Below are positions 4,696 to 49,800 of a stretch of DNA of 64,000 bases, piece by piece. The notes under the pieces are model-generated. The model did not search any database. It was not told the DNA's origin and was given only the letters and a program-made list of their open reading frames with translations. The position numbers were made by a program, and so were the translations under genes. The DNA lies in assembly GCF_964340395.1 (NCBI RefSeq), contig NC_135568.1, positions 2,124,001 through 2,188,000 of the forward strand, given 5' to 3'. The stretch is from Glandiceps talaboti (Eukaryota; Hemichordata; Enteropneusta; Spengelidae). Position 1 is the stretch's first letter; the number at the start of each line of letters is the position of its first letter.

Positions 4696-4699
4696 AAGT

Positions 4700-7235: not shown

Positions 7236-7239
7236 TCAA

Positions 7240-7516: not shown

Positions 7517-7678
7517 ATTACCCTGTAATCAAGATGTTCAAAAAATGTACACTGCAAGGTCATGGAAGTCATCAGAAATGCCACCCTACTGTCACTATAA
7601 TTAAACCAAAGTCCTTTCAATAGCTTTAATATATCACCATGTCCAGACAATAGTTTTAGTCTGTGTATATCTTAGTCA
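7517..7678. repeat. Dispersed repeat family A, copy 1
   Basis: This segment shares a diverged but collinear series of words with 33178-33368. They are an ACCCTGTAATCA start, TACACTGCAA, GCCACCCTACTG, TTTCAATAGCTT and a TTTTAGTCTGTGTATATCTTAG end. It is probably a short interspersed element. No coding capacity was seen. Confidence 0.5.
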
Positions 7679-7944
7679 GCTCACAGCTCTATTTTCAGTG
7701 TCATATTTTATTTCACATTCCTGAATGTCTTAGTGCATTTGAGACACCAAAGTGTTCAATAAAATAATCTATAATTAATCCATGTGACGACCCTCACACT
7801 GCTATATCAATACCTAACTCATATATGCTTATGATGACAAGCTAAGTCCCATGATGCAACTGTGGACCAGCATGAGAATGATGAGACATGAAACTAAGTT
7901 TATTTCACTTTTAAATAGCATTTCTTGCCAATTAATTGAACTTC

Positions 7945-8035
7945 ATGTGACATCATGGGCATGAAATCATGAAATGACTATCAGAATCAAAAGTTTATGA
8001 AAATACAAAATGTACATCTATTTCCTGGAGACTGG
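7945..8035. repeat. Half copy of the fold-back element at 27310
   Basis: The stretch GGGCATGAAATCATGAAATG, followed by ACTATCAGAATCAAAAGTTTATGAAAATAC and then TTTCCTGGAG, matches the right arm of the element at 27310-27707. It indicates a second, truncated member of that family. Confidence 0.45.
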
Positions 8036-8039
8036 AGTG

Positions 8040-9003: not shown

Positions 9004-9079
9004 CTCTTTCCGCTGAAACTTGACATAAATTAATTGATGCGATAAAAACCAAGAGCAAAATCACCCTCCTGAGCATCAT
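9004..9079 (-). CDS. Putative signal-peptide first exon, unidentified gene
   Basis: On the minus strand, ATGATG at 9079 opens a frame of 25 codons. It starts MMLRRVILLLVFIASINL, continues CQVSAER, and is followed immediately by a consensus donor (AGAG|GTGAGT at 9003). The peptide has the charge, hydrophobic core and small-residue pattern of a secretory signal peptide with a likely cleavage after VSA. The sequence just downstream is locally rich in CpG and ACGT words. The donor phase is 1. No later exon was recognised between 1 and 9000, so product and extent are unknown. It may also be a chance frame. Confidence 0.4.
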
Positions 9080-12106
<3,027 letters not shown>

Positions 12107-12684: not shown

Positions 12685-12856
<172 letters not shown>

Positions 12857-13420: not shown

Positions 13421-13548
<128 letters not shown>

Positions 13549-14716: not shown

Positions 14717-17369
14717 ATGAGTGGTATGCAAGGTAAGCACACTGATCTAGAACTTTCAAAATATCGCTCATTCTCTACTGTACCATGGAGGTAGAATATG
14801 ACAGTTGTACACATCATGGATGTATTAAGGGCATATATATGTATGTATTCATACAAATGTAGAACCCTCTAAATACAACCATTGCTGACTTAAAACAGTT
14901 AGAGTTACTACTAATTAATATGCATATGGTTGTGTTATCAGGTGCCAGACAATATGATCTTAAATACACAGTAACTGTAAAGTACATGTAATAACCAGAT
15001 TTTATAGCTCTGGCAGTAGTAGTGGTTTATTTTAGCAGACATCTAGTCAGATGTACATTGTAAATATTTTCACAATGTATATATTTGACAATATGTAAAA
15101 CATAGGTTAACCTGTTTCAGTTTGCTAGTGAAGGCTGTCAGTGTACAGTGTATACATATACTGGTACTGGGTAAATAATACTAGACATTATACGAAGGCT
15201 TTGATTTTGTACATGTATGTATTTTAATGTATTTGATGTGTTAATATTATCAATCACTGTTTACACTGTCAATCTCAGGAAACTATTATAATATAAATTG
15301 GTGAAAAAAATTGTGTTGTAGGACAGCGTAGTATTTCTACTCCATGTGTGTGTTTTCTAATAAAAGGCAAAAATATTTGTTGGTCAGTCAAAGTGGTAAT
15401 TTAAAATGTATTTTCATGTTAGCCAGGACATAGTAAGGTAACTGGTGTGGGAATATTAAAATTTAATGGGTCACAAATTATTGTTTGTCAGTAACGTGTC
15501 AAATTAGATGGCATACTCTTTGTGTACGTGTATTTGTGGAGTGGAGATAATGTTTGCATCAAACAACCAAAAGTGTACAACACAGGCATGTCCCCAAGTC
15601 ATAACCAAGATAACATATTTTTACTGCGTTAGCGTATATAACTGTAAGTGAAGTGCCGTGGAAAACATTAATAAATAGTTTTGGAATAAAAACATTTGGA
15701 GGTTTCCAAAGATACAAAAGAGATGATATTGACTTGTTGATTAAGTGACTAAAGACATTCCTGTAACAAGTACCAACAATATTGTAATTTATTCTACTTT
15801 GAAGTCCAATATTTAGATTAGAACTGTAAGTCGTCTTGGTTCTTGAACCTCAGTTTGTCCCCATTATATAGTGTTTGTGAATGTTTATACTCTAGTTTGT
15901 TGCTTGTCACCGTATCAATTTGTTTAACTGTGTTTACTGTGGTATTGTTACCCTACAACTCTCTCACCATGCAACTCAGATATTTTCCATTAAGGAATGA
16001 TTTCGTTGGGTTGGTTTTTAGAAATCATAGATCACAGTCATGACAAATGACATTTTGATAAAAAAAATCAGACATGTACATCATTGCCATATTAAACATA
16101 ATATATATTGACTAAAAACGTTCATCAACTTGGTGAATCATTAGTCTACTCTAAGGCTATCCATGGCTTCAAATCATTTCTTGTGAAGTGAAGATCATAG
16201 ATCTTGAGATTCAGAGCCACAGATATCCTCTAAACTAGTGAATCACATGAGTGACAAATTTATGCAGTTAGTATATAGTATCGTTTAAAAGACTAGTTTT
16301 TGAGCTGTGATCCCCTAACTTGGCCTAAGAATGACTTTTAACTATAGTTACAGCAAATGACTCATCAACACAGAGATGGGACATTATCAAACTATCAAAT
16401 ATCGACTCTGGGCTCAGCTTGTTATACTGCCACCTAGTGGTATGCTGTAGATATACAGCAACTGAAATTCACTCTGATTCGTTTTGACTACATTGGATCA
16501 AAAATGCAATCATGCATACTGTACAAATTTAATGTTTTATTAGCATAACTGAACTAGCCCTAGCCCAGAGATTTGTCATAATCCCACTGTTTCAGATATG
16601 CCTGTGTGATAGTGAGACCACAACAGTCTCCGGGTTGGAACTCTATAGATTCAATAACATCTCTTTCAGTTGTACTACAGTGCCATTGGCATTACTTTGT
16701 TGTAACTTCTCACTTCAATAATTTATCTTATTTCTAGATTGGTTTTACCATGCACCAGCTAAGAGGCAGGAGAAGGAAGCCATAAATTATCCGGCCGCTT
16801 CACAGATTCCGGGACTTAGTGGTGTTGTGGTTGATGAGAGGGAAGATGAATTTGGAACTAAGCGTGGCTATTTTAAAGAAAGTGATACCAAATATGTACG
16901 GCTTGCTAAAATGGGAGGTAGAAAAGGTAAGTACATTTTTAGATTCAAATTGAACTAGAAACTTGAAAGAGAGTTATTGTATATAATGGTGGCAGTAATC
17001 ATTGACAGCAGGTGTGTATATGTATGTGTATATATGTATGTGTAATTGGGCCATCTGAAATATATTAATCTTTATGCATTTACCTAGTATAGTATTTTTA
17101 CTCATTTGATTTCCATTCATAATATACAGATTTACTCCGATTCCGTAGTCCTAAAACTTTATCTGACGACCCAGTTCCTTATCCTAGACCAGATTGGCTT
17201 GATTGGGACCAGGAAGCTGGACCAGATGCAGGGTAAGTTTGTTATTAAAGCAGGCCACCGTGTATTCTGTCTTGTTAAACTTTATAGTGATTATTGTCTA
17301 GCAATGACAACGTATATAAACAGTAATGCAGAGTACATACAAGAAGAAATGCTATGTTGTATGTATGTA

Positions 17370-17431
<62 letters not shown>

Positions 17432-18967
17432 TATGTGCATGCGCGTATGTGCATACATGTATGTGTGCACACGTGTGTGCGTGCATGCGTGTATGTATGT
17501 ATGTATGTATACATTGTTAACTATGTATGCAGTTCCCAACATACATGAACATAATTTGCATGCTTCATATGTACAAATGTATGTGAGTATATAATTTATG
17601 ATTATAAGTTCAAAGGTTACAAGTTGCAAGTAATACAGTCCCTATAGCTATCAAAGTGTAAAATCACGTTTTGAATGAAATGTCTTTTTCACATATCAGA
17701 AATACATATACATGATAGATACACATCTAATTGTATTATACATTCAGATGTGGTCTGTTGAACGTATACAGTGCCTTTTGTTTAAGAAAATATACCTGAA
17801 AGGATTTTCCTTATGAAAAATTGTTGTCTTAAAGTATACTGTATAATTATTAAAAAAATAGTTTTTATTCCTAAATGAAGAAGCACACGGCTAAAGTGGG
17901 TTTGTTTTGTTTGTTTTTTTGACACAAGTTGTCAGAGAGTTAATAATGATATTTTTTATTTATTCAGAGACAGAAAAGTATACCTGCCAGAATACATGGT
18001 ATATGATGAACACCATAGTGATCCCGATGCTGAACCATACATGCCACGACGACCACCCTACTCACTCAATGATCAAGTCTCTGTATTTGAACGTGAAGGT
18101 GGTGCCAGGAAACCAATCGATAAAACAGTCAAACTACCAGAGATTAAACGTCCTGGTAGAAGACATTACTCAAAAAAAGACAACGACAGACCAGCGGGTA
18201 GTGATAAAGCAGGCAAGAAGCAAATCACATCAAACAGGTGCCGTTTTCCTCCATTGTGAGTTCAGATTTCCTTGTCCATTTATTTGTAACTGCATGTGAT
18301 GATGCATGACATGACTAAAATTAATCAGTATCCGATAAAAAAAAATATTAAGATGGTTCTTGGATCAGCATTTTTTAAATTATACTGGTAGTTCTCGAAC
18401 TTGCACATTTCTAGGTGTTCCTTTGTAGCACATAAATACTTAGATTTATAGTAAACTAGTCTGTAAGATACGACATGTTGTGCTATACCTAAAAGTCCTA
18501 TCAACCAGTCTAAAGAGAAAACTGATAGGGCTGAATTACATGTCATATCTTACAGTGTAATAATAAACTTGATAAGTGTGGAAGTTACTGTAAATATAGT
18601 GATAGTATATATAAATAATTTTTTATGATGTTATATTAATTTATATAAAATAATGTATGACAGAATAAATGCATAAATTGTAAACAGTAACTTGTTTGTA
18701 AAAGTTAGTAAATGAGATTAAGATTAAAAGATTAGTATTGAGGTGTAGAATGAATACATGTATACACATCATAATTATGAATAAATAGTGTATTTTATGT
18801 AGATAATGTAGAAGATGGGTAGATAGACAGATAGACAGGTAGATAATTAGCTAGCTAGATAGCTAGCTAGATAGATTAGCTAGCTAGATAAATAGCTAGC
18901 TAGCTAGCTAGATAGATAGTTAGATAGATAGATAGATAGATAAATAGCTAGCTAGCTAGTTAGATAG

Positions 18968-18998
<31 letters not shown>

Positions 18999-21900
18999 GA
19001 TAGATAGATATAGACAGACAGACAGACAGACAGACAGATAGATATTGATCGATAGATAGATAAATACACATAATTAGCCCAATTAGTGGATAGATAAATC
19101 CGCAGAGAGACTGATCAATACATACATACTAAAGAGAGAAAGGAACAATTTACATTGAAAAAACCCAAATAAATATTGACAATTTCATCTCATTTCCAAG
19201 GACATTAGTGATTACAGATAATCTGATTAAAACTGTTTCCTATTGTCTTGTCAGTTTGGAAATCAATCAAAACAACTAAAGAACAAGAAAGTAGATGGAT
19301 ATAGAGGAACCTTCACAAATTTTAAAGATCAAATTTTTTCATGACAAAGTTGGGAGGACTGAATCAGTATAATGAGAACTGTTGATCAAGAACGAGTTTG
19401 ACCATCTGCTTCATAAAATTCAAAAATGCATTCAGCTAGGTGTGGTTTGCAGTGATATCATGCATATAACAGCATACCCAGAACCAACTCACCCCTATGA
19501 CTTCCTTGTATTTGGTACCACCCTATTGCATTCTTGATGTGGAAGAGTCCAAATAGTGAAGTCAGGGTGGGAAGGTTACGGCTGCATGAAGTCATTCCTT
19601 TTCGTCAACGATTTCAATCATATTCCCTGCATATTCATTGGCTATTGTCACATGTCACATGCATATCACATGACTATTATGTTACAAATAAATGGACATC
19701 ATGTAAGAATGACCACTAATTATACAAAAAATACCACATGCATCTCAGCAGTATGTGAAATATGAACCAAATTTTATGATTTGCCTTCTATCATGAAACC
19801 AGTGAATTCACATGATTAAGCAACAGATCTGTGATAGACAAATCTATGAATTTATTTTTAATAATTCATGACTTTCTTATTAATCATGATTTCAAACAAT
19901 TACTGATTTAGAAAAACTGTAAATTTAATGTAAATCTGTGTTTCTGCTCATGTTTACTTCTGTGAAAAAGTACAAAATTTACATTTGATCCAAGCTGTGT
20001 TCATAGGTTCATGTGAGTAACTTCTAAACATGAAATGAAAACAATGTACAACTTTATATATGGTCATTCTTACAACTAGCACATTATCACCTTAGTAGGG
20101 GATAAAAGCTGCAAACATTGTCTGCATAATCTGACAGTGAATTTAAACTTGACATTGTACTAACAGAGTTCAAGCTTCTATCATATACCCTCCTTTCCTG
20201 GAGGGTCTATGCTTCATTTACCTACAAGCAGAATGCGCTCTTTTTGTTAGTTTTCAATTTTCAGTTCAACCTGCTCAAACAGAAAGAAGAGCTGGAAGCA
20301 TAATATTCTGCTTAGTAATGAAAATTTCTACTCACAGAGTCAAATTTTACTTACATCTCATCAATAGTAAGTATACCCCTGATGATGCTGATGTCAGCAA
20401 AAATTTGAGATTCACTTCCAAGAATTTATTTGACTCTGTGAGTAGAAATTTTCATTTCTAACCATGAACCCAGAGTTCATGAACATTCATTCTCACATAA
20501 TATTCTGCATTTGTCATTCATTCAGTGTTCACTTCTGTTGACAGGACAGACTAGAAGCTGTCTTTATTTCCCTCTAGAAAGAAAGAAAGCCTGCAAGCTT
20601 TCTTCAATTGTCTTATGATTAACCCAGGGTCATTCCTTCATTGTTCACTATACAGAGCTAAACCGCCATGGCAGATTAAAAGCTGCTAGTATAAGTAGTA
20701 CTTCTTAATTTTCCCTTCTTACTCTAGTCCTCTATAGAGAAAGAAGTAAATCCTCCAAGCATATTTAGATTTTCTTAAGATTAAATCTTGGCCATTCTGT
20801 TCAATTCTCCATCATGTTCAATCTCCTTACTGACATTATAACCTGCAAGCATGTTTTTAATTTCTGTAAATTATAACACAATGTCATTTAATAATAACTT
20901 TGATGAAAGTTTTTATAATGTTACTTTCTTTGTCCAAGATTATGATAAAATTTCCTAAACAGCTGAACTTGAAAGAAGCTTTTGTACATTTGGCTATTTT
21001 TGAACCAAAATTATGACAAAATTTCATAACTTAACTTTGAGAAGACTTTATAAATTTGTTCAATTTTGTACCAAAATTATGACATATTTCATAAATGTGG
21101 ATTATTTCTATGGCTGATCTAAAACTAAGTTGCTATGCAAAAAACAAACCAAACAACTTACCAAAGGATAATTTTGAATAAGTAAACTTAAAATAATCGT
21201 ATCCAAAAGTTTACACCCTTCAAGGAAAGGATTAAAACTCCTGGCTAATCTTATTTGTTCTTCTGTGTACACTTTTAAGCCTCAGATAGACTTTATGCTT
21301 GAAGAAGTACTCCATTGAATATCTTAACAACTAACACCTGAGCATAGCAACAAAGCCAGTCATTTACCTACTACCATAGCAACTAGCAAGTTGCCATGGG
21401 TTGTATTAGTGCCCCCAAGGCATTGCATGAAATGTTGCTACAAACACCCACCATATTTACTAAATATTTGAAACATTAATTTGTTATTTTCTGGTCTAAA
21501 TTATACTAATTCTTAAAAGTTATTGAATATCATTTTGTAGTAATTGTCAATGAACTGTATTAATTAATTGCAACTTTGCATTCCTGTATAAAACTATAAA
21601 ACTAAAAGCAATAGTTGACAAATATAGTAAGTGTTGTAGTTAGAGTGTTTGGAATTGGGCACCCCGAGATATTGATTTCAATAAATTAAATAATAAATCA
21701 CAGTGAATCGATAACTAGTGGTACAAGCATTGAACAACTCCAAGTGTTTTTGTTAGGGTTTGGTAACCCTGGTAAGAAGGGAAATGTGGGTAAACATACA
21801 TAGAGATTGTTGTACCTATTATCATCATTTTGATTTGGAAATAGTGGTTTTACTAAGGCTTATAGGGGTATCTGGTAAAAATTGCATAGATTTCTATATT

Positions 21901-23479
21901 AGTACAGTAGTTTTAAGTTAAAGTGATTAGTTTCTTTGTGATTTACCCCATAGGATTATTGGAATGCTAAACAATGTTAGGTGTGTCATAAGAAATTACT
22001 GTACATCTCAGTTTTAGCTCAACTTACCTTGGCAGGCATACTGTTCTATTCACAGCTTACCCTTACATGTACTTGTACATGGCTTGTAACTCACTAATCA
22101 TGTTAGCCAAGAGACATGACTGTTTAACATAACATACTGCGCTTTTCAGAGCCAAGACTTTTTGCTATATACTCCCTGCTCTGCAAACACATATAAACAA
22201 TGTCTTCTTGGTATTACCGTCAGACTGGACCATACAAGAATGAAACTGAAATATAGTAAATCTTAGGTAACAAACAAAGTATTCTGTTGTTCGTTTTTAC
22301 AGACCCCAGGTGAATGAAAGTGAACCAATTATGTTTGGTAAACTCCTTGGTATGGGTTATCAACAAGACTGGATGAAAGAGAGGGAAAAATATTACGACC
22401 AACATCATAAAATATTTGAAAACAGGGCAGGTTTAAGTAACCAACCCAAAGAAAAGACAAAATCAGAATATCAAGATATTTTTGGCAAGGAGGAACAAAA
22501 GAGAGGATCAGGAAAGACACACAGACATCCAGCTGCCAGGACAACGACGGAGAAAAAGGAATATGAAGCTGTAGCAATTGAAGATGAGGCATTGTTCAAA
22601 CTTAGCAAGTATGTAATATACTTTATGTTTTTGTCTCTTTCTGGGATTAATAAAGAAGGTGTGAGGGTGGGGTGGGGGGGGGGGGGCGCTTACTGAGGGA
22701 TAATACTACAGATTTTATAATGTGATCCATTTCTCATATTTTCAATCCCATTGTTACTGTGGTATCTAAAAGTTGATATGAAAATACTAGTATGTTGATT
22801 TTCATTCAAGTCATTCAGTTCATAAATTTATATGCTATTTCAAAGACATCATCTTTGCATACACAGAAGTCTCTCAAACACTTCAAATAAATTCTCAGAA
22901 TATTTTGTTGTGGTTCCTAGACAGTCAAATATAGTTACATTGGAATGGTAAATGAATGCTACTCAATTCATCTACTACAAACCTTCATCATGCAATACTC
23001 TAATATTATATTCAGCATGAATGTCTCTCTGAACGTACATCTCACTTGTTTCTGGTCGGAACGTAAAGTAAAGGAAGCCATCTACATCGGAGACCATGAT
23101 TTAATCAACTACCATCAATTTAGTATAATGGACATTGTATTCCACTAGTTTCGGAGAGACAGTAACGTATAGCGCTGAATCATATCATCATGTGATCAAG
23201 ATCCGTAGTAGACGGATTTGAACGTCGCATTCCTTTCTAATTTACCATTCCAAAGTAACTATATTTCACTCTCAACTTTTAATAAATTTAGTTCAGATAA
23301 ATTAAAATCTTGTTCCCATGATTATAGATCTAATAATGAGTAATGTCATTCTCTCTCTTTCTTTCTTAACCAGATTCAACAAAGTACCAGCCAAAGTTGA
23401 TTGTAATAGACCAAAAAGAGATAGTGCCCATAGAACAGCTGTAGAATTCCAAAGTCAGCCTCAAGCCATGGAAGCTTAA
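14717..23479 (+). CDS. C7orf57: C7orf57-like protein, six coding exons, 329 aa
   Basis: Coding exons are 14717-14732, 16738-16926, 17130-17232, 17968-18237, 22303-22608 and 23374-23479. All have GT-AG borders and compatible phases, giving 329 residues with stop TAA. The start exon encodes only MSGMQ plus one base. As I recall it, the human C7orf57 product (about 295 aa) shares a DWYYH-like motif, then ASQIPGLS, then VKLAKQGGRPDLL. Here these read [24 protein letters not shown] and [13 protein letters not shown]. Further matches are the LPEYMVYDE segment and an [18 protein letters not shown] motif near residue 205. The protein is charged and probably largely disordered, with no signal peptide or membrane span. 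Function is unknown. AATAAA at 23726 is a candidate polyadenylation signal. The donor after exon 4 (GTGCCG) is weak, and reading through it meets a stop soon after. Confidence 0.85.
17358..17514. repeat. 157 bp perfect purine-pyrimidine alternation ((TG)n and variants)
   Basis: Every step from 17358 to 17514 alternates purine and pyrimidine. (GTAT)n leads into (TG)n at about 17375-17424, then a mixed GCATGCGCGTATG and GTGCACACGTGTG part, then (GTAT)n. Such sequence favours left-handed Z-DNA. It lies in intron 3 of the C7orf57 homologue. Confidence 0.9.
18460..18556. mobile_element. Short MITE with CTGTAAGATA termini
   Basis: TGTAAGATACGACATG near the left end is matched by CATGTCATATCTTACA at the right end, an inverted repeat of 16 bp with one mismatch. 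The ends match the junction palindrome of the 4 kb satellite. The internal sequence differs from other copies. It lies in intron 4 of the C7orf57 homologue. Confidence 0.55.
18815..19055. repeat. Degenerate GATA/GCTA/GACA microsatellite
   Basis: A patchwork of GATA, GCTA and GACA tetranucleotides, with several GCTAGCTAGC self-complementary stretches that could form cruciforms. Intronic. Confidence 0.85.
20317..20456. repeat. Inverted repeat with perfect 29 bp arms
   Basis: AATGAAAATTTCTACTCACA and the following bases to 20345 are the exact reverse complement of 20428-20456. The spacer is about 82 bp. A fold-back or MITE-like element in intron 4 of the C7orf57 homologue. Confidence 0.75.
22927..23270. 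mobile_element. ~345 bp terminal-inverted-repeat element
   Basis: The left end AATATAGTTACATTGGAATG is the near-perfect inverse of the right end CATTCCAAAGTAACTATATT. Similarity continues inward for roughly 70 bp at lower identity. No transposase is encoded, so it is non-autonomous. A second, partial member lies at about 45960-46080. It sits in the last intron of the C7orf57 homologue. Confidence 0.65.
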
Positions 23480-27850: not shown

Positions 27851-30800
27851 CTACAGTATTTTCCTGAGCACAGCATTGACAATATCTACACTTTCATCAC
27901 CTACAAGCACCACATCATAATTATCTTTGTATTTGTCTAATCTTTCATCGATCTGAAAAATATGAAAATCAGAAATTAGTTGTCAAAAAACGACAAACTG
28001 CATGACGGTTATTGTGATTCCAGAGTTTTAACTACTTGATGACACTGTTAAGTTTTGTATTTGCAAATGCCAATTTCAATTTTCCTATGAGATTTACATT
28101 TATTGGCTGTCAAGGTAAAATCTGAACACCTGATAACCATGTAAGATAGTAGGAAACACCCATTTTCTGATTTCACATGTGTATGAAGAACATTTAAAAC
28201 TTCTACAGAAGGTTGCAGTGTATGTAGGATGGATACATAATGGAAACTTCAATATGTCCTTAAAGTCATCGAGACTTAGTACATTAAAAATGGAGGTCTC
28301 CTAAAACCCTCCTGACTTACGTAAGGCCTAAAAAAAAATTGTGTGGTTCTGAATACGCTCAATTTGAATAGGTGGGGTAGGTAGATTTTTTAGTTTATTT
28401 TTATCTGTTTTTATTTTTTTTCATATGTGAGTGTCTAGTTCAGGTAGTTATGTTTCCATTGTTTTCTATATGGTATCTGTGTTATTGGTTTGTTCTTATC
28501 AGATGTACAGCTATTACAGATTGGAAGAACAGTTTTATATTGTCTTTATAAGTTGATGTCAGATCCACTATTTCTTGCAAGACTTCACAATTTTTGAGAT
28601 TTCATTATTTTTTCTAGAACACCTAAAAACAAGTTTAGGGTTGGTAGTGAAAAAGTAATTGGGGTTGGCTAACTGGAACCAAACAATTTTTTTAGGCCTA
28701 ATACATGTACATTTAGAGGATGTCTCCTTACCTTGTCATTGAGATATCCTATAGTCAAACAATTCTGTATATTCTTGACACCATCAGCCATAGTTAGATC
28801 TCCTAAAGTGTCTCCTAGTAGAATGACATTGCTACGATTCTCTATCTTCTCAAAGTAATTACTTTGATGAAGTACAGTTTGATTCTTGTTGTATGTATGA
28901 ATCATGTCACCTTGAAATCCAACCAATTTACCCTGTCAACAATATCAAAATTATCATTCAAACATAATGAAGATTCATTCTTGCTAAAGTGAACAATAGC
29001 ACATAAGATGTGACCAGGTCATACACAGATATAAGCAGCAAAGCGCTATATAAGTAAATCTCATGAACCAAAGCAATGGTTCACAGCAGCTTAGGAGTAC
29101 ATTAGAGAATCTTCTGTTTCTTTAGGGTGTTGAAAGATGTTTGTGCACACGGCTCTTGAAGGACTGAGCACCATTATCACTGATCACTCCAACTACATTG
29201 TCAGGGAGTTCATTCCAGACTTCTTACATTATAAAACTACTATACAATACACTGGCTATCAAGTGACACTTACCTCTTACATTATAAAACTACTATACGA
29301 TACACTGGCTATCAAGTGACACTTACCTCTTACCTTATAAAACTACTATACTATACACTGGCTATCAAGTGACACTTACCTCTTACCTTATAAAACTACT
29401 ATACTATACACTGGCTATCAAGTGACACTTACCTCTTACCTTATAAAACTACTATACGATACACTGGCTATCAAGTGACACTTACCTCTTACCTTATAAA
29501 ACTACTATACTATACACTGGCTATCAAGTGACACTTACCTCTTACCTTATAAAACTACTATACTATACACTGGCTATCAAGTGACACTTACCTCTTACCT
29601 TATAAAACTACTATACTATACACTGGCTATCAAGTGACACTTACCTCTTACCTTATAAAACTACTATACTATACACTGGCTATCAAGTGACACTTACCTC
29701 TTACCTTATAAAACTACTATACGATACACTGGCTATCAAGTGACACTTACCTCTTACCTTATAAAACTACTATATGATACACTGGCTATCAAGTGACACT
29801 TACCTCTTACCTTATAAAACTACTATACTATACACTGGCTATCAAGTGACACTTACCTCTTACCTTATAAAACTACTATACTATACACTGGCTATCAAGT
29901 GACACTTACCTCTTACCTTATAAAACTACTATACTATACACTGGCTATCAAGTGACACTTACCTCTTACCTTATAAAACTACTATACGATACACTGGCTA
30001 TCAAGTGACACTTACCTCTTACCTTATAAAACTACTATACGATACACTGGCTATCAAGTGACACTTACCTCTTACATTATAAAACTACTATACTATACAC
30101 TGGCTATCAAGTGACACTTACCTCTTACCTTATAAAACTACTATACGATACACTGGCTATCAAGTGACACTTACCTCTTACATTATAAAACTACTATACG
30201 ATACACTGGCTATCAAGTGACACTTACCTCTTACCTTATAAAACTACTATACTATACACTGGCTATCAAGTGACACTTACCTCTTACCTTATAAAACTAC
30301 TATACTATACACTGGCTATCAAGTGACACTTACCTCTTACATTATAAAACTACTATACTATACACTGGCTATCAAGTGACACTTACCTCTTACATTATAA
30401 AACTACTATACTATACACTGGCTATCAAGTGACACTTACCTCTTACCTTATAAAACTACTATACTATACACTGGCTATCAAGTGACACTTACCTCTTCAC
30501 TAAAATCCATGTAATTGGACACGACTTGAACATTGCTATGAAAATGACCCTGTTGTTTTATTATTTCTTCTAATATATCTCCAACTCCAGCAGAAAATAT
30601 AAGAAGTGGTACACCATGTTTATGTAAATTACTAAAGAATATATCACAACCGTCCCTGAAATAAAAGAACATCAGGTTTATAACACATGATATTATCATC
30701 ATCTGTATGTGTATTTGAAAGTTGTCGAGATAAAGTGCAGGAAAACTAACCTTGGTTATTATAGGGGGAAAAAGTATTAACTTATCACTTTATGGTAGTG

Positions 30801-33800
30801 TGGATGCCAACGTGGTCAGACAGATCTGAAAGATTCACTAGACTAGAATAGACTACTTCACGGAGACTGTCTAGATAAAGTGCAGGAAAACCAACCTCTG
30901 TTATAGGGAAAAAATTATTGAGACATCACTTTATGGTAGTCTGGATGCCCACGTGGTCAGACAGATCTTAAAAATTCTCTAGAATAGACTACTTCACAGA
31001 GACTGTAACATATAGGAAGTTTTAATGACATAACAATAATTTGTCTACTCCAAGAGTATAAGCCGGCAAGTTGATGTACCACTGACACAGCATTTTCTTT
31101 GACGTAACAAAATTTGGTGTTCCTTTATCCCTTCTATCAGTATTTGGTGACCAACAATGAACCATCTAAGCCAATTTGATATATCACCAACAAACAATAA
31201 CTTATTGTGATCCATCAAAATCCCTTACGATGTGGTAACTCACAAGAAAACAGTTTTTATTATTTGAATTGACAATAAAGATGTTGTCTTTCACTTGTTG
31301 GCACTTTGCTACGGAGTGTTAGTTATCATAGGAAGGTCTTGTAAATAGTTGTACTCACCTGAGCATGGCACCTGACTTCTTTACCATGTCTTGGATATCA
31401 GTTTTATTGAGGTCACAGGTCACGAGGAGAGAATGAGATTTAGTCCACCTATAACACAGAAAAGGTCACAGGTCACAAGGAGAGAATGAGAGTTTGTCCA
31501 CCTATTGTATATGTACCAGGGAATACTTGGTGCACACATACATGTACAAGTGGTATTTGCAGTGCTTTTGGTGCACAGGAAGGTTATGGCGCATTCCCTC
31601 CTGACTCCGTCCACACAGCACATAGGACGAAGTCAAGAGGGTTTCAGGAAACCTCTTGAAGGTGTCCTAGGTCAGGATGGTTTCAGGACTGGTTCGGGAC
31701 GTGTTTGCATCTACACAGGCTTCAAATTATCCTTAGTAACTTAGTCCTGCCTCAGGTAGGACTTTTAGTGCCGTGAAGATGGGGTTACTAGGGCACTTGG
31801 GTGCTGCACAAGTAGCAATCATATCTGACTTTCTACATTACATTATAATGGACTTTAGATCTAGACTAGAATTTATGTTCTTACCATTCTATCATAAATG
31901 GTAGTTTTTCTTCCTCTGTCATATCACTAGCGATTTCTATAGCATAGTATTTCTCTTTTAACAGCTTAGCTTCATTTCTATAGAAGTCTGGAATCAGAGG
32001 ACTTGTATCTATAATACCTGGGAATAAAACAAAGAAAAAAATGCTTCATTGTACCTTTAGTTTTCATAAATCCAAAACTCTTCAAGTTTGGCCAAACAGA
32101 TAGTGACCCAATGTAGAGTAACACATTTAGAATTAAAGGGTACTGTCTGAAAATATGTCCTTTAGACTGCACCATGGGGAAGAATTTCACCGACAAGCAA
32201 AGTTCTAACAATATCTCAAAGCTTTGCAATAAGGAAGCAAGCTTGTTTCTGGTCCATTTGAAATAAGAAGAGAATTTAGGGGTCCTCCATCTTGTTTTCA
32301 TGAACTGACAATGTTTTATTTTCCCATTTGGCAGCCATATTGGATTCTAAAATGGTAGTCTGCAAATGTTTGACTATTTCTAAAACATTTTCAGTCATTT
32401 GCAATGCTAGCACTTGCTGTAGTTATTTTCAAACCACCCCACCCCTCTCACAACCTTATTTGTACTGCCCTCAATTTTTTTCCTATAGGACTCATAAAAT
32501 TAGCTTTCCAGGAGTTATTGTGTTCAATTGTGTCATCATGTTCCAAGAAAAATTTATGAGCAAAAGTACACCAAAGTCCAACCAATAAGTTTACTTGTTT
32601 GAAAGAGAATTTACAACATTTTTGGTCAATCATTTCCTTAATGACATTGTCCATAGGCTTCCAGCAGTAAAAATACATATATGCAGGACTTTCCTGATGT
32701 ATCTCACAATTCCAGACTTTATAGGAGTGAATGAACCCAGCTACCCTTATAAATCAACCTAAAAGATTCCTAGGAATAGCTTCCATGGAAAAGATGCGTC
32801 ATTGTATGGAAATGCTACTTTTCCGTGTATATTGTCACATTACTTACCATGACATGATGGGCAGCGTTTTCCATTCAAAGCAAATCTAGATAATGTCTGG
32901 TCAAAGTCTGTCACTACCTGTATGTACAGAAAACAGAGAAATTGAGTAGAATAGAAATAAATGAATAAAATGGAAAACTCATGTAGAGTGAACATAAAGT
33001 CTTGGCAAAATACTAAAGAATAAGAATGAAGTTTTAAATAAAAGACCATACATATGATACTAGTAATCCAGCCTTTGGTTTACTAAGATAGATACAAACT
33101 AAATCTATAACAGTTCTTCAATATGGTACATTTATACAAGTGGGTGATAGCCGTTCCTCTCTTCTGTGATTGTAATCACCCTGTGATCAACATAGTGTAA
33201 ACATTGGAAGTCCCAAAACAGTACACTGCAATTTCACGTAACTCTAAATAAACTAGTATTCAAAGATGCCTCCCTACTGAGACTATGATTACATCAATAT
33301 CCATTCAATAGCTTATCACTGTTGTATCAACATGTTGCAACAACGGTTTTAGTTTGTGTCTATCTTAGAAAACCGAACACGTAACTACCTGGGTAATATA
33401 TCTCACCTGTAATTTTTCTTTACCACCAGCTATCAATTGACACAATATTTGTTCTACTCTTTCTGGATTCTTGATGTGAACAGAGGTTCTCTGAAACTCA
33501 TCCATCTGAAATATGGATAGTAAAAACTCTTAGACAATCAAACAAATTTCACTTCAATTCCGCAATCATTATATCCCTGGTATATATGTATATACGCAAA
33601 TCTCAGTTTATTAGTATTGAAGTCAATTGAATTGAATGATATTTATTCACTGAAAGAAAAAATTAACATCACAAGAGTAAATATATCGAAAGGAAGGAAT
33701 ATTTTAAATGGAATAACAGGAGTCAACAAATAGCTATATGCTAATCATGTCTGACTCCTAGAAACAATAAGTAATAGTTCATGTCTTGGGTGAAAATATA

Positions 33801-37832: not shown

Positions 37833-40800
37833 ATGTCGTTATTTAAAGCCCGTGATTGGTGGTTTGTGAGTGCTGGTGCCGATGAAGAGTTTGACCAAGG
37901 TTGTCTGTGTGTTGCCAATATTGACAACAGTTCTAGTGGTCTGGGTAAGTACACTCTCAACTCACCAAGGTATTTCAAATTTCTTTCTACAAGACATTTT
38001 AATATTCAAGTCACAATGTTTTTGTTAATAAAAGGCTATGCAAGTGCCTACAAGGGGTGACGGTAAATAGAATCCTAGCACACATAAATTATAATGCCAT
38101 TGCTCACTAAAATCTTGAACTGGAATTTGATCTCCACTAAAATAAAAAATTTGGCCTTGTTTGTCTTGTATGTAATCTTTCTGAATTTCATTTGAATCCA
38201 TTCCTAGCTTTTTGAGATACTGTAAACACAGATGATATTTATTGCCACTAGAAATCTTTATAAATTTTACAGTCAAGTTCAACTAGTTCCCTACAAATTT
38301 CTAAGCCTGGTGTACTATGTTTTTATATACTGAAACATTTTTGCCACCACTTATTTTCATGTTTGGTTTTCCATCAAAATAAATGAAAATAAGTCCAGTG
38401 AAAATGTCCAGGTTTCCAGTATTTTGCCTGATTGACAGTCAAATAGACAAACAGCCAGGGTGAAAACTTAACCTTTGGTGGTGGTAATGATTGAGAGATA
38501 AATGAATTCTTCCAATCTCAGAGATAAATTTGGTACAAAAATAAAGCCTATAGTATATGTACAACACGTACCAAAACTTTCAGATCAATCTTCTGAAAAA
38601 TAAAGCATGCATACAACAAATATTGATTTGAATTTGTGTAATAATGCTTATTTCCCCACAAATCAAAACTAAATCAGTCATTAAATAGATAAATATGAAA
38701 TGAAAATAATACCTAAAGAATATTGACTTGAATCAGTACCTTCCATGCAACTCATTTGAATACTGTTAAAAAAATAATATACAAAGAATTTCATAACACA
38801 GGTACTTACATGCATACAGAAATAACTGCATATGTGAAGAAATTCAATATAGAAATGATGTATAATGCACAGAGTTATTTTTATTTTGAATTATTGAAGT
38901 GGTGCTGACGTGTGCAAATGAATCACAATTGAACCATACAATTATGGAGGCTGCAATGGATTGTATGTTCCCCAGGGAGTTGAAGAAATATAAAGGGCCG
39001 TTGTGTCGCTATAGATCCATGCCAGGGGCAATAATTGTAAAGCGCTTTGAGCACAAAGTGGGAAAGTGCTATATAATTTATAAAAAACAACATTATTATT
39101 ATTATCATTATTATTATTATTATCATGTAGTACAGTAGAGGAATATGACTAGATTTGAAACCTAAGCAGAAAGATGTTTTGTATAAACCACAATAAATAA
39201 CCATTCTTCTACATCCTTTTGGCAGAATTTATAACTCGGATGTCAATGTATGAAACTTAAAGTAAGTATTTTTTTACTTCCAGATAAAGTCATCATTGGC
39301 AGTTTTCATGGATTTCTAAGAATTTATCAACCAGAACATAGTAAAGATGGATCGCAACCAAATGATGTCTTGTTGGAAACACAATTTCAGTTCCCAATCC
39401 TACAGATTGAAGCTGGAAGATTTGTCTCGTAAGTCATACGCTTTGAAATTAATTGTTATCAGTAAAATATCTATTACCTGGTCTGATATTGTGTCTACCC
39501 AGTATCAGAGTTTGAACCACACCTTGTACGTAGAAAAAGATAAACGTTTAGTCTGCGTGTCTCAATAATCTGAGACAGAGAAAGAAAAATATTGGAAAAT
39601 GAATACTTGTGACTTACATTTTTGAGAAACCATTTTTAAAAAAACGGCGGTATTTTAATATGCATTGTGTATGCTTCTGTAAAGTCTGTAAATTCTCGGA
39701 ATTTCCAGTCATTCCTAGAATTTCAAGTCACTCTTGGAAAGTCATAGAACATTTACATGTACTCTTCAAAACTCCTCGAAAATAAAATGAATGAAATCAT
39801 CATAACATACGTTGTTAAAAATTACCTTGTGTTATTGGGAACATCACAATATTTCAAATAACAAATCTACCTATTGCAATTTTAAATGTATACATATGAA
39901 ATTTATTTCAATCTTATCATTACTTTTAATGTATATCTGTTATTTTTTCTGTAGTGTCAATGAAAGTATTCACCTTGCCGTGTTACATCCCAGAAAGCTA
40001 GCTGTCTACAGTATTGGAGGTATGTCTAACATAATGATCTCTAAAAGTTGCCAAAACCTCTCTGAAAGGCAAAACACACACACACACACCCATCCTATCC
40101 CCCTCCCCAAATAATCTGAAAACAATCATCACAGGTCACTGTTACATGTACGTTATAAACATATATATTGTGAGTAACACACTGTCAACAAAACCAACAC
40201 CATGAAGTGTAGGTTGAAAATTATAAAAGTTATTATTAAAACCTGTAAACAATTTAATTTTTTTTTTCAATTTTGTACAGCTGTTACTGGGGCAGTTGAA
40301 CATGGAAGTCAATATCAACTCAATTTACTATATGAACACAATTTACAAAGGACAGCATACAATATGACGTATGGACCATTTGGTAGTGTGAAAGGTGAGT
40401 ACAGCAAAGTCTGAACTTCAAGGACTTGTTTCAACCCAGGGTTATCACATCTGGGTCATCACATTAGTGTTATCTTAATAAGAGTTACGTTTGATTGTTC
40501 GTTTGTTGTGCACCAACTTTTTCTATTGCTCTGACAAAAAAATGTTGTTCACACCAAAATTTTAATCATAAGCCGAAGTGGGCCAATAAAGGTCACCGTG
40601 GAATTTGAAGTGTAAATTTTCACTTTTTACACAGAGAAGTGTGAAGTTGACGTGTCCAATGTAGATTGTGATACTTACATTATCTTCCAAGTAACATAGA
40701 TATATTCTACAAATTACTTAGAAACTCCTGAAATCTTTTCAATTTTTTGTATGCCTGCAGATCTTTACTTTTTGAAAATAGAAGCTATTTGTATTTTTAT

Positions 40801-43800
40801 GACTACAGATCAAAGACCAGTCTTTCTTATCCAAGATAGAAAATACCATAACATTTTCATGACTACAACTTTTAAGTTTTCAATGTTTTATTCATAACAG
40901 GAAAAGATTTTATATGTGTTCAAAGTATGGATGGAACAGTGTCAGTATTTGAACAGGAAAGTTTTGCATTTAGTCGATTCCTGCCAGGATTTCTACTACC
41001 AGGACCTTTGAAGTACATCAACAGAACTGATTCCTTTGTCACTGTATCATCAAGCAGACTGGTGGAATGTTACAAGTATCAAGTACTTGCTGTCGCTACA
41101 GACTCTAGCACCAAAGACGAGTCACAGAAGATTTCGAAGGGGAAGAAAATTACAGTAAGTGATCTAGAAAATTGATCAGTGGGAATTAAATGTGTACACG
41201 CCATTTTTATCTTGAACCTCCCTTTTGTCAATATTTCAAATAAACACCCTGTCCCAGTAAACAGATTTACATGATAACATTATTGTCTGTATTTTTTCAA
41301 AGTTATCTTACATGATTTTCTTCACGTCCAATACAACATGAATAAACATTGATAAAGATAATTCCACATGTAGAAATGCTGTTTATATAGGCTAGTGTCA
41401 GTAGCTGTAAAATAAGGATTTTTGTGTTTTTCTGGAAAGAAAATTAGCTGAAGGTTTTATCTCATTCTTTTCATGATTTGATAAGCACTATTATTTTACA
41501 GTAACTGAATTTAGGAAAAAATATTAAGTTTTAATGTTTAATGATGTGAGTCTGTGTGCCCTCTACTGATACTGATAGCCAAATTCTGTTGAGTCAAAAT
41601 GAGAAAAAAACTGGCATAGTAAGAGATAGGGGAACACCAAATTTTGTTGCATCACTAGAAATTGTGTACACCAGTGGCATGTCAAAGTATCTTAGAGTGC
41701 ATGCACACTGGTGGGAGTTATTAATGAGTATTTTTCTTGTTTCTCATTTGTCTCAGATGGATTGGAGTTATAACCTTGGTGAACAGGCATTGGATATAGC
41801 TGTTGTCAGTTTTGTCAATGCACCGCCCTCTATCATGATATTAGGTAGGTCAATATTTACGATATACCGCCCTCTATCATGATTTTAGGTAAGTTAATAA
41901 TATTTACCTGTCATGATATTTAATTAGGTAAGTTAATATTTACGATATACCGCCCTCTATCATGATTTTAGGTAAGTTAATATTTATGATATACCACCCT
42001 CTATCTATAACAATGTCAGCTCTTCAAAAGTGTAAAAAGTCCAACTCTGAAATAGCATATCGTTGTCTAGTAGTGTGTATGTATTCAATTTAGTTATATA
42101 TCTTACAGGTGAAAGAAATCTGTACTGCTTGAAGGAAAATGGACAATTGAGGTTTACCAAAAAATTGGATTATAATGCCAGCTGTTTTCTGCCATATACA
42201 TCAGGTGAGTCACTTTTGTAAGAAGTAGCACCCTCAAGTGTTTAAATTTAGAGTCTGTTAGAACACACGCTAGGAAATGGCATACTATTACTAATTTAGT
42301 AGACCAGGAAGATTACTGGAAAATGATGTTAGTCAACCAGAAAGACTCCTTGAAAACGATAATAGTCAACCAGGAAGACTCCTGGAAAATGATGTTAGTC
42401 AACCAGGAAGACTCCTGGAAAATGATGTTAGTCAACCAGGAAGACTCCTGGAAAATGATGTTGGTAGACCAGAAAGACTCCTGTAAAATGGGAATATCAA
42501 TAACTTTATGTGTCCTATGTACATATACTTTATCATAAGCTTCTTTTTTTTCTGTTTCCAGTGAATGAAGGTACCATTATGACTATGATATGTACACACA
42601 CCAAGTCACTACTAGTCTACGAAGACATCACATTGAAATGGGCAGCAACACTAGAACATATACCTGTATCAATCAAAGTGGGAAACTACCAGTGAGTAAA
42701 TACATACTATTAAATTTTGATGATCGTTTTGAGTGGATACATCTGAAATAACTCAGTGAACAGGTGATCTTTTATTCATTAACTAGACAGGATGAAAGTA
42801 ATTTAGACTGTCCTGAAAACAAACAAATCATGTCATTCAAATTATCAACACAGTTTAGAAAGAAAAAAAAACGATTGAAGATTGATTAAATAACTTGAAC
42901 CTTGGGCAGATGATTCTGTCAGATATGTATATGTCAGGGTAGCCTGGTTACTGGCATGTGGAGTGACTTCACTGTAAAGTACATTCAAATCTCTGTATAC
43001 AACACATTTAAATCAAGAAGGAAAAAGTGTGACTTGGCTGGGACTGAGGCCCAAGACCCCTGGAACATGAAACTGACACACTACCAACCATGCCAGCACA
43101 CATCCCCAACCCATTAACCTGGTGTTACCACACTCTTCTCCCTTCTTTTCTTTTAAAAACCCACCAAAACCACAACCAACAATGCCAGCTGCTGCATGAT
43201 TGATACATGTCCCCAATTTACCCAGTTGCCATTGTAGTAAATTGAGAAGGAGAAAGATGCAGGGAGACAACCTGCAACCTGCTGGACACTTAGATAGCAC
43301 TCTACCAGCTGCCACCAAGACCAACATCCCCAAGCTATGACATTAACCCTAATGCCCACACTATTGTGGTATACAATAACAAGCACCCACACTGTAATAT
43401 GGCGATATCTTGACTTTTTATATTCTGTCTCTACAGAGATTTAAAGGGAGTGGTGACCACCTTGAGTGAAACAGGACATTTGAGCTGTAACTACTTAGGA
43501 ACTGATCCATCACTATTTGTGGCCCCGGCACCTGAATCACGAGAAATCAACTATCCTCAGTTAGACGATGAAATGAGAGATTTACAAAGATCTATCAAAG
43601 AAGCTAATTCTAAAGGAGCAAGTAAGAATGGTGTAGATTTATACTTGTATATGCATGCCCCTTAAAGGCCAATGGTTCAATCCCAGGGTCTCACATTAGT
43701 GTTATCTTATCTTATCTTATCTTATCTTTACTTAGCATACTTGTACATGTATCTGTTTGCTAGTCTAGTTCTAAACTGGTACAGTGTATTATGTATTAAA

Positions 43801-46800
43801 AACTTCATTACACTTCTCCAGTCTAGTCAAGACCATTGTTTGAACACATATATCTGTGCTCCCCCCAACCGTGTTCATTTTAACACGATGATGTTGTCTC
43901 GTCCCCATGTGATTTTAGTTTAAACAGACTGGAGGTGGAGTCCTGGTTGGACATTTGCATATCAGTGCGGTCCTAGAAACTGCTGATACAGCTGTATCAA
44001 ATGAATATTAATGAGTGATGACGACAACCTGTCAGTTTGTGATGGATTACTACTGACATTCACCCTTTGTCCTTCCCTCACTACAGGGAGCACGACAATT
44101 TAACACCTTTCGTAACCGTCTTGACTAGACCGGAAAAGTGTAATGAAGGTTTTAATACGTAACACACCAGTTTAGAACGAGACTACTGTTCACTGAATTT
44201 AACAAGGCTTTGAATTACATTCAACATGTCAGATTCATGTTTTCTTTGTTTGTTTGCTTTATTTTTTTCATCAGATGTGGCCCCTAAAAGAGCAGAAGCT
44301 GCAGATGTTGAGATAGTTGTATCTGTTCCCTCCAATCTTGACAACACATCAGTAAGTTATAGTGATAGTGAATGTCAGGTTTATGTATGACTGGTTGTCA
44401 ATCCACCAAGATTGTGTTGGCTTAGTTTGTCAATCCACCAAGATTGTGTTGGCTTAGTTTGTCAATCCACCAAGATTGTGTTGGCTTAGTTTGTCAATCC
44501 ACCAAGATTGTGTTGGCTTAGTTTGTCTATCCACCAAGATTGTGTTGGCTTAGTTTGTCTATCCACCAAGATTGTGTTGGCTTAGTTTGTCTATCCACCA
44601 AGATTGTGTTGGCTTAGTTTGTCTATCCACCAAGATTGTGTTGGCTTAGTTTGACATCTAACAAAACCTGAAGTTCAGTCTGGTTTTGAAAAAAACAATC
44701 ATACATTTTGAAAAAAGCTTTACCAGATTACCCCGGGTAATATTATACATTGTTGAAAAATGATTGTGTATTGTACTTAGAGAAGTGAGTTAGTTTAGTT
44801 ACATAATTAATAACCTTTAGAAGGAGCTTGTCAATGAGTATTTGCATATTTCACAAGAGATTTCGTATGCTAGGAGTACAAGTTGCAAACTCTAAATTCA
44901 GTCTGATTTGGAGAAACGATGATACATTATGGAGAAGTTATTCTGTTTTGTACGCAGGGAAGTAATTTATTTTAGTTACGTAATCAAGAAACCTGTGGAA
45001 GAAGCTTGAGCATATTTGAGTACTTTCATAGAGATTTTGTATGCTAAGAGTATAAGTTGATAAAACCAGCAAATAACAAATAAAATATTTGTCATCAAGC
45101 CATGAGGTTTGAGATAGGAATTTGATTACAGTCGCTTCTCGGAGTAATTTTATGGTTCTTCATGACATACTATAAAGTATAGTGGAGCTATATTGATTTC
45201 TGAAATCTCAATTCGGAACTATTATTGAAAGGAATGAAAGATTAAATTTGGGATTAAACAGCTGTGCAGTCTTGGTGGTGACTACCAGTCATATAGTATA
45301 TGCTTTTTTTCATTTATTTTTTAATAATGTCAAATGGCCTATGTTGGAGTTAAAAATATGAACATTTCAAGATGGTTTGCCACTGAAGAGTACAGATTCT
45401 GTCGGTCCAAAATCTTTCTTTATGTTGACAGTGACACATGTTGAATATATTTATCTATATTTCCAAACACAAAATCAAGTCCAGTCATCAAAAGTTGTTC
45501 TTTCATTATTTAAAGATCACATTCTGTACATATGAAACACATGCCTATCTGTTTTTTGAAAAATCTGCAGCTGCTTGTTGTATATATGTACAAGATATGT
45601 AGTCCCTTGCAGGTTAACATTCATGTACTGCAGGAAACTCAATCATAGTGTTTGAAAGTCAAAGAATTTCAAACACGTCCTTAACAAGTCTTGGGAATCC
45701 ATAGAAGTCAAATTCCTCTGTGAATCACTTGGAGAAGTGACATTTCTGAAATCAGCTAAAATGATGAAAATTAGTACAACTTGAAAAGTAAACTTCCTTT
45801 GTGACAACATGCATCTGTTGGTGATATTATCTTGTGTACACATTCCTTGAACACAAAAATTCTGGGAAAGTGTCTCGTAGCATACTGGAAAGACGTGGAA
45901 GTTTAAACAATATTTAGTGCAAGAATCCTATGTTAGATTCAAACATATCTTGACTTCTCTTCCCAGTTTGGAGAGAAACTTTAACGCTGAATAATTAAAT
46001 CATTGTGTGATCAAGGTCTGTAGTAGATGGATCAAAAAGTCACATTTGTTTCCAATTTACAGTTCCAAAGTAACTATATTGTACAGTCCTGGACTTCTCT
46101 GATTCTTTATGGCAAACATCTTGGAACATTCTTATTCATACTGGACATACTAAATGGTGTTCCACCATATCTAACCTCAAATGTCACACAATTACACTTC
46201 ACTGTACAAAGACAATCAGATCTTCCGCGCAATATTGTATTTTGCTTCTTTCAATTTGCATAATCACCTGAGACACTGGTCACTGCTATTCTACCCAGCA
46301 TGCATTGCTGTGGATAAAAACCTGCCTCGTGCCATGCTTACAATTTACCTTGGAGGCTTAACGCTGCTAATTGTTGCTTCTCTGTGCATGACAGCTTAAT
46401 GTCTTTTATTTTCAAAGGTTTCCAAGTACTGTTCCACACCTGATACATGGGTAAGAACATTGTCATTGCATAGTCTAAAAGTTTGCAGTGTCATGCAACC
46501 CAAGTGAATAAAAAAAACCACAAAACGTCACCTTAGCTTACTGCAAAATGGTACTCTCCAAACTATTCATGATTTTTATCCGACCAACTTTTCTGTACTT
46601 CAGTAAACGGTTCTGCTAAGTTCTTCTTTCTTATTTATGCTTAAAAACAAAATAAAGTTATTAATTCGTGTTTATATTTTGTCAATTGCTAAAAAAGCAT
46701 AAGCAAATGGCAGTGAAAATTAGTAACACGTTTCCAGTGAAATCAAGGTGGAAAAAAGTACTGAAATTTGTGTCTTGAAAATAACAATAAAATGCCAGTA

Positions 46801-49800
46801 GTTTAATAATTAAATGTAACTGGGATACATTAATCTATGTCATCATGGGGTCAAGCTATATGGCTTGCTACTACCAAATATGTCTTTGTCACAGAGAATA
46901 CCTAATCAGGAATACATTAACATAATTGATGGTTTTACAAAACTTGTCAAAACATCTTTTTTTTTATGATTTAGCAATCTGCACAGCTTATTTTATTTCT
47001 GATAATGTTACTCTTACAATATAAGGCAGAAAGCCAAGGTGACATTTTGTGTTTTGTTGTTTCCATGGCAACAGTCCAGAGCTGTATATCATTTCATATC
47101 AATGCATGCGCCTTGTTACTCATAGTAACCATTGCTCACTCTACTAAACACACTTTGTTACTAACATTTTATTTTTAAGTTTTTCATAAAGTTAAAATTC
47201 TTACATGATTTCATTATGTCTGTAGTGTGTACAAACCTTTGTTACAGGGACAGTAGTCATTTCCCAATATCTCCCCTGTCATTAAGATTTGAATTATGTG
47301 TACAATGTAGGTATGTTGTCAGTCACATATACATGTACTGGTATGTACATTTGTACATGTTGTGTGTGATTTCATTTAAAGGACATCAAAAGTGATGATA
47401 TCTCTGTATTGTGTAGGATGTCATTGAAAGGACACCAAAAGTGATGACATCACTGTATTGTGTACATCATTTAAAGGACACCAAAAGTGATGACATCACT
47501 GTATTGTGTATGTGTATGATGTCATTGAAAGGACATTTTTAGTGATGACATCTCTTCCATGATGTAACACAAATTGGATGTAGGTGAAAGTGACATCACG
47601 AACACATGTAGTGATGACATCATTGATTTTGGTGTGGCAATATACAATGGAAACAACTACTGATGACATGAACACGTAGTGATGACATCATTGGTTATAG
47701 TGTGGTGAATGTAAGTGAATAGTGTGGCAACATACAATATAAACAACTACTGATGACATCACAAATGTTGTGTTTCATAAGTTGTACTTCATTGTCAAGG
47801 ATGAAAGTTTAAGTACAAACCCAGTTGTACCAAAATTACAAAGATTTTAGAGAGTGGATGTTATATAGATGATGTAAGAGAAGGAAAATGTAGATAAGAA
47901 AGACTTACTTTACAGTACTGTATCAATTCTTCATTTAGAGTGAAACTCACCCCTACCTTCCCTTCCAAGTACTTAATAATTTCAATACCCACTATCAGAT
48001 ACAAACTAAAAATTTTGTCTATAAAAAGGATAACTTTTCCATTTTTATTGAAACAGGAGATGTATGTTTAAAGCATGTTGTGTATCATCAAAGTGATGCA
48101 TGTTGATTCAGAAATAATTTGTGTTTGTAATTAAGCTTCATTTCTTTCTCATACATTGTTGTGTCCTTGTAGTGAATGACATGTTTATCCTCGGTCTTCA
48201 GTTGTTTGAAATGTCATCTTACATGTACAGTTGTTGTTAGTTTTAAACATGTGATCATCATGTGTTGTCATGTGATCATCATGTGATATGTATAGTATTG
48301 AGAATCTGATCATGTGCTGTCCATGTAATCATTATGTACTGTTCATGTGATCATATGTGTTAGTACTGAGAATGTGATCACCACATGCTGTCCATGTGAT
48401 CATCATGTCCTGTCCATGTGATCATCATGTATGTGTCAGCATTGAGAATTATGTTATCATGTGTTGTTTTTTGTTTTGCATGTGATCATCATGTGTTGTT
48501 CATGTGTCTGTGCATGATTGCTGTGTCTGTGTATTGCTATGAATACCATGACAGCAGTAACGTCACCGTCTTTGTCATGATATGTTTTCACCTACAGGAA
48601 GTGCCCCTAGAGTTCAGTATAGATGTATATTCCAAGCTAGAGGCATGGGTAATACTGAACTCAATTGTATGTTTTGTGATGTTTTGTTCAAGTGTGTTAC
48701 TCTTTTGATCACTTTCACCTTTCACTTCCTTGTTCACTGTGAAACTCTGACTTGGTGTCTGAACACTCCTGTACTGTGTGATGTGAAAAGTTATCATTCC
48801 TTGGAAATATTGACGTCATTTTCATCAAAATGTATCAAGAAATGTAAGCACCCCCCACCCCCCCTCCACCCTCACAGCAAGGCACAATGTTTTAGGATCC
48901 GTCTTTCACATGTGTATAATATGTCCAGTGGTGTACACAGTCACTGTTCTTTATGTTGTATCACTTTTATTGATGTTGAAATGCACAGGGATAGTTGTCA
49001 TACTATGTTTTTATGGTGCTGATACATCCATCCATGCATCCGTACAAATCAGTGTACGATTTTATGAGATTGATTGACATGGCATTGTATATTATTAAAA
49101 TCACATTGGTACCAAGCCCTCCTGACACAACCACTTTTATTTGGTGTAAATATCAAAATTGATAGTAAAACAATCCAATGATTCCTAAGATGGTGGGGTT
49201 AGTTTCCAAATATCAGGATTTTAGGATGGGATAGAATGAGATAGGGTGGGATAGCATGTAGAGTTGGGTATTTGAAAACTTCAACTTAACTGTGGAGAGA
49301 TATTTCAAGACTAAGCCACTAATAGCGCCCTCTAGTGGCAGTGGCTGTAGCATTGATGTCAGACTTTGTTTTCATTAAAATTGAGTGTGACTGTTGTGTT
49401 GTTTAGCTTTGATTTGCTTTCATTATAAAATGCCAAGCATTATGTTTAAAAAGTTTCATGCATTTTATAAATGTTGTTTGGCAAAAAAGGTTGACGTTAT
49501 AGTATCAACTAAACCTAAGTTTTAACCCGTATGCTATTGACTGTTGGTGTATAATGGTGTTGGTATAAAAACCCAAAGAAATCTAATTTTCAAATGTGTG
49601 GTTTTAGTAAAAAGCTTTATAGGTTTGAATTTGTAGCAGCTTCAATAGAAGACTGCTATAATACAGATATATTATGGTGTATGTTTTTGCTTTTATCAGT
49701 GTGTAGTGTAGGCCAAATCTAATTTTGATTGTGTGATCTGGTAAAAAGTGTGTAGTAGCTTGGATTATTGTAATCAAACAAATTCTTAATGTATGTATTA

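Follow-up and report, generated by a model that had tools for sequence, protein, structure and literature searches.

Mirages, as lancelet minisatellites located at exon borders have been called, have repeat units of 10-72 and 150-160 bp, and two papers report that splicing is undisturbed by them (PMC3087553, PMC3902484). Both papers cite a case in lancelet Adh, and the second adds lancelet PGBD5 and cites troponin C (PMC3902484). Here we describe tandem arrays at four exon borders of two neighbouring genes, NT5C3 and BBS9, of the hemichordate Glandiceps talaboti. The genes lie in a 64,000-nucleotide stretch (positions 2,124,001 to 2,188,000 of the forward strand of contig NC_135568.1, assembly GCF_964340395.1), hereafter the window, whose internal numbering is used throughout unless a locus is named. 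The original prediction, made from the letters alone, had placed four tandem repeats at real junctions of these genes and knew of no named system of this kind. Tandem Repeats Finder (TRF), self-comparison and homology-checked exon models confirmed both the repeats and the junctions, and a name does exist, since lancelets have mirages. Very probably the arrays are mirage-type minisatellites, which arise by ordinary minisatellite birth, at times happen to extend over an exon border, and are tolerated there.

Results

Tandem arrays at four exon borders of NT5C3 and BBS9

The NT5C3 donor array (29222..30497, minus strand) comprises 24.1 copies of a 53-bp unit according to TRF. The unit starts with AAGAG/GTAAGTG, the slash marking the exon border, so that 5 nt are shared with the exon. 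This core occurs 24 times at a spacing of exactly 53 bp, with a donor score of 12.3 in 24 of 24 copies, counting the real donor, which is the exon-side copy. At an acceptor of the same gene, a duplication (31410..31452 and 31463..31505, minus strand) consists of two copies offset by 53 bp, each taking in 39 nt of exon and 4 nt of intron. TRF missed this repeat; it was added by hand, being visible in the sequence and scoring in the ungapped self-comparison (offset 53), and its upstream copy falls below the acceptor scoring threshold. The donor array of BBS9 exon 6 (41822..42005, plus strand; 44 bp, 4.3 copies by TRF) takes in 23 nt of the exon 3' end together with the donor at 41844, which scores 9.3, against 11.8 for each of the copies at 41888, 41927 and 41971. 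The acceptor array of BBS9 exon 19 (55040..55374, plus strand; 43 bp, 7.8 copies by TRF) includes the intron end, the acceptor and 15 exon nt. It holds eight cores including the real one (first exon base 55360), the real acceptor scoring 14.4, four copies 9.2 and one copy 7.8, with two cores below threshold. The four arrays are real repeats, far beyond chance as repeats.

Three attributes of mirages are present at these borders. The units are of minisatellite size and run head to tail (43-53 bp, with just two copies at the NT5C3 acceptor), and both 5' and 3' splice sites are affected, the window having two cases of each. Units extend across the exon-intron boundary in three arrays, as had been predicted, and carry 39, 23 and 15 exon nt (17-40 nt in the prediction); the NT5C3 donor array, with 5 nt, is a borderline case. 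Of the copy numbers originally given, those of 24 x 53 bp, 2 x 53 bp and about 4 x 44 bp hold, and the BBS9 acceptor array has about eight copies of 43 bp (about seven in the prediction). The interval first assigned to the phenomenon, 29224-31508, covers just two of the four repeats.

The border assignments rest on gene models for which exons were located with human probes, set to the base by AG/GT signals and phase, and then verified against PDB sequences. BBS9 (37833..57227, plus strand) has 21 coding exons forming an open frame of 967 residues from ATG to stop, and 818 of these residues align to PDB 6xt9_I as a single stretch (query 1-818, chain 1-825). That comparison covered exons 1-18 and most of exon 19; exons 20 and 21 are read from the open frame. 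NT5C3 (27854..33505, minus strand) yielded seven coding exons and 285 residues, all 285 of which match PDB 2bdu_A (1.2e-109); a further upstream exon may exist, because the first exon found opens at an acceptor-like site. The exons concerned are, in NT5C3, those at 30493..30655 (donor 30493) and 31359..31448 (first exon base 31448), both minus strand and supported by the gene model and the PDB match. In BBS9 they are the plus-strand exons 6 (41757..41844), with the same support, and 19 (55360..55555), where the PDB match covers most of the exon. Since both models match PDB chains, the donors at 30493 and 41844 and the acceptors at 31448 and 55360 are, by homology, real exon borders. The outermost copies keep a conserved reading frame. 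It is the exon that matches vertebrate BBS9 and NT5C3, and therefore the exon is indicated as the source of the arrays.

A high minisatellite load in sampled loci of the genome

The genome was sampled by taking 10 kb at position 3,000,001 of 20 contigs, 19 of which were obtained, one contig being too short. Minisatellites (period at least 20) account for 32,878 of 170,741 non-N bases (19.3%) of these 19 loci, compared with 6.7% of the window itself. They form 55 arrays. The median period is 46 bp, and in 26 arrays the period falls between 30 and 60 bp. The original prediction had read the similar periods at the junctions as the sign of a shared mechanism. With a median of 46 bp making such periods the norm in this genome, they need no junction-specific mechanism, and a junction array found later has a period of 68 bp. 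The 19 loci also gave 43 de novo coding segments, of which 29 were considered after six simple-repeat rows and eight rows from locus L027 had been dropped; six of the 29 have an array within 150 bp, one of them (in locus L014) at a border. For five of ten segments tested, no Pfam family was found at E <=0.001.

Further border arrays in an importin-13-like gene

Locus L014, on contig C7, contains an importin-13-like exon (PDB 2x19_B match, 1.8e-8), and the final unit of a 49-bp array provides its acceptor. Counting the real one, 41 of 55 cores keep CAG, and within the 30 kb around the locus the array extends to ~143 copies. Eight exons of the gene were recovered with a human probe; three of them have just one weak match each (E 0.015 to 0.02) but lie in the correct order. 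A second border, a donor, carries three copies of a 68-bp unit at position 15800 of the joined sequence. The 3' end of the first exon (exon A, placed by eye) is found again in an array of 30.8 copies of 53 bp, which is now separated from the exon by an apparent insertion and in which the donor motif has decayed in the printed copies. These arrays occupy L054 6176-10000 with L014 1-3141, L053 47-2035, and L054 5737-5936, bringing the border-derived arrays to seven in three genes. Between a border array and its exon, GC-rich sequence (CCCCGCCGGACG...) lies at ~150-350 of L053 and is possibly a mobile element. A further 10 kb of upstream sequence contained one more importin-13-like exon. No array crosses the donor of this exon, and a search for the acceptor did not place it. 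Minisatellites make up 25,727 bp of the 40-kb importin-13-like stretch, which includes 5,000 N (L053, L054, L014 and L055), and the 10-kb locus L056 has arrays at 1-847, 849-5833, 6437-9250 and 9388-9824.

Several arrays stop before they reach a splice site, leaving a gap of ~42-56 nt, at one donor and three acceptors: 44395-44653 and 50961-51184 in the window, 5436-9167 in L014, and from L053 3062 to L054 914. They look as if limited by splicing signals. The two in the window are among the arrays there that were set aside, being close to borders and not across them.

Alternative explanations

It could be argued that mutation is directed to junctions, with splice sites or transcription-linked structures as preferred start points of tandem duplication; we consider this rather unlikely, and the measurements point both ways. 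On a list of 59 junctions from BBS9, NT5C3 and three exons of a C7orf57-like gene, four are crossed by a local duplication scoring at least 30; of 1500 positions drawn at random from the gene span, 199 lie inside one. Arrays cover 3 of 52 intron-edge bases versus 2,976 of 21,288 intron bases (14.0%), edges thus being covered less than interiors. The coincidence of arrays with junctions is not clearly beyond chance. Since arrays cannot reach far into exons, a stricter null limits them to 45 exon nt, and from here on a series of results speaks against ordinary minisatellite birth as a sufficient account. Under this null the ten TRF arrays of BBS9 and NT5C3 give three border cases against 1.15 expected (P 0.10), and adding the hand-found two-copy repeat gives four against 1.26 (P 0.028), a result biased by the fact that this repeat was added solely because it is at a border. 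A second null, based on founder units, yields four against 1.14 in the window (P 0.021; for three of ten, P 0.077), so that the window excess is about threefold under both strict nulls (P 0.021 to 0.10), and pooling the window with the importin-13-like gene yields six against 2.28 (P 0.022). Among the junction arrays, the five found first all have periods between 43 and 53 bp, a 10-bp spread that five draws at random achieve in just 0.6% of trials (P 0.006). Donor motifs at score 10 occur in 3 of 17 array units of the window against 0.30 expected, the three being two of the junction arrays in question and a 156-bp array at 3978. Against all this, the window was chosen for having these arrays, so its P values are post hoc and none is an independent test. 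The importin-13-like gene without its discovery array has 2 of 14 arrays border-derived where 1.13 are expected (P 0.32; 15 junctions), and the sparing of intron edges runs the wrong way for a directed process. The 55 array units of the 19 loci have no excess of donor motifs over matched single-copy sequence (score 9, 3 versus 2.28; score 10, 1 versus 1.1), and the idea that array units are generally rich in splice motifs was rejected on this ground. The 68-bp junction array breaks the 43-53 bp cluster and, with the median of 46 bp in the 19 loci, led us to reject a common period as a junction-specific mark. Preference for junctions is thus not established, though a mild one may exist. That tandem duplication in this ambulacrarian genome preferentially begins at splice junctions, perhaps via transcription-linked structures, seems to us unlikely. 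If it were true, gene expression would routinely leave exon-border arrays behind, and these would constantly provide material from which introns could grow and new splice sites could form.

The original prediction had suggested selection on splice-site redundancy. It is not at all likely that selection retains the spare splice sites, whether for back-up or for regulation by decoys or poison exons. The intact donor motif in 24 of 24 NT5C3 copies and the 41 of 55 CAG-bearing cores of the importin-13-like acceptor array, real core counted, would suit such selection. However, each of the 13 alternative junctions that were translated runs into a stop codon. From BBS9 these were three donors and five of the seven other acceptor cores; from NT5C3 they were the upstream acceptor and four of the 41 other donor-like sites in the donor array. 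In NT5C3 every inner donor would include the same intron start, with a stop after five codons. Useful redundancy is unlikely because of these stops, and the strength of the copies relative to the real site differs from case to case (stronger, equal, weaker or dead). In BBS9 the donor copies are stronger than the real site and the acceptor copies weaker, and the NT5C3 acceptor copy is sub-threshold. The donor is moreover lost in the printed array copies of importin-13-like exon A. A regulated role of the copies in nonsense decay may exist. An assembly artefact, with repeats collapsed or inflated, is a still more remote prospect, which we regard as extremely improbable. Array copy number is uncertain in any assembly, but the NT5C3 copies bear a patchwork of variants and the BBS9 exon-side copies differ from the inner ones. 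Furthermore, an assembly of 590 Mb in 47 contigs with a head-to-tail mitochondrial contig would be typical of a long-read assembler. Ordinary minisatellite birth, tolerated at exon borders, accordingly remains the reading we prefer.

Neighbouring genes and other observations

The C7orf57-like gene (16738..22608, three exons modelled), NT5C3 (27854-33505) and BBS9 (37833-57227) are consecutive in the window, and their human counterparts are all on chromosome 7. Two of the three exons of the C7orf57-like gene match Pfam DUF5524, one above and one below the curated cut-off. Further along, 62235-62681 and 63011-63406 hold two dermatopontin-domain frames (Pfam PF14704). Other repeats of the window include a 156-bp x 4 array at 3978-4602, the unit of which contains a strong donor-like motif (score 11.9), and long near-pure tri- or tetranucleotide repeats at 10265-10543, 12686-12856, 13421-13547 and 34528-34798.

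The mitochondrial contig (C40) is 51,222 bp long and represents a 15,435-bp circle repeated 3.3 times head to tail, with 35% C; the repetition is probably an assembly artefact. Its minus strand carries nad6 (frame by eye) and the tRNAs for Ala, Cys, Asn, Pro, Gln, Ser and Tyr, two further minus-strand ARAGORN calls (Arg, Lys) having been taken as false and left out. The same minus-strand set is reported for the mitogenome of the acorn worm Glossobalanus weii (15,835 bp, 31.7% C; PMC11148506). Against this likeness, adjacency of nad5 and cob, reported for two other hemichordates (PMC2697986), was not seen on C40, where the cob frame follows atp6 (by eye). Judged by the mitochondrial contig, an enteropneust hemichordate is the likely but not the proven host.

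Discussion

Local duplication or slippage, one of the mechanisms offered in the original prediction, remains the best explanation for the arrays. A short tandem duplication would arise by slippage or mispaired repair where the site happens to span an exon border. Continued slippage, or unequal exchange, would then extend it into the intron. Selection would go on maintaining the coding sequence and splice site of the copy attached to the remaining exon; we infer that splicing uses this outermost copy and that the other copies, lying within the intron, are removed with it. As the genome appears to generate such arrays at a very high rate, some would be expected to land on borders. The border arrays therefore look like a by-product of a repeat-rich genome, not a new device. 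This links duplication at exon borders to a minisatellite load that is very high in general, and it makes the arrays good material for asking whether they lengthen introns or seed new ones.

Among the open-licence papers listed, there was no report of such border arrays in a hemichordate, a result that does not show their absence from print. Two other described phenomena bear some resemblance to what we observed. In one, introns are gained when an exon segment containing AGGT is duplicated in tandem (PMC2891723). Exon sequence with splice-like motifs is likewise copied there, whereas the duplications described here cross the border of an intron that already exists. Internal tandem repeats in human segmental duplications (PMC2812944) are also built of minisatellite units, some of them at exon-intron borders. 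Those human repeats occur in recent paralogues and alter gene structure, while the coding sequence here looks unchanged. The closest likeness is to lancelet mirages, which share with these arrays minisatellite-scale units including the exon end and the splice site, an occurrence at both donors and acceptors, copies that run into the intron, and AG or GT signals kept in many copies. The present arrays differ in having a hemichordate host and up to ~143 copies in one intron. They thus extend a mirage-type feature from lancelets to a hemichordate, in which it is recurrent.

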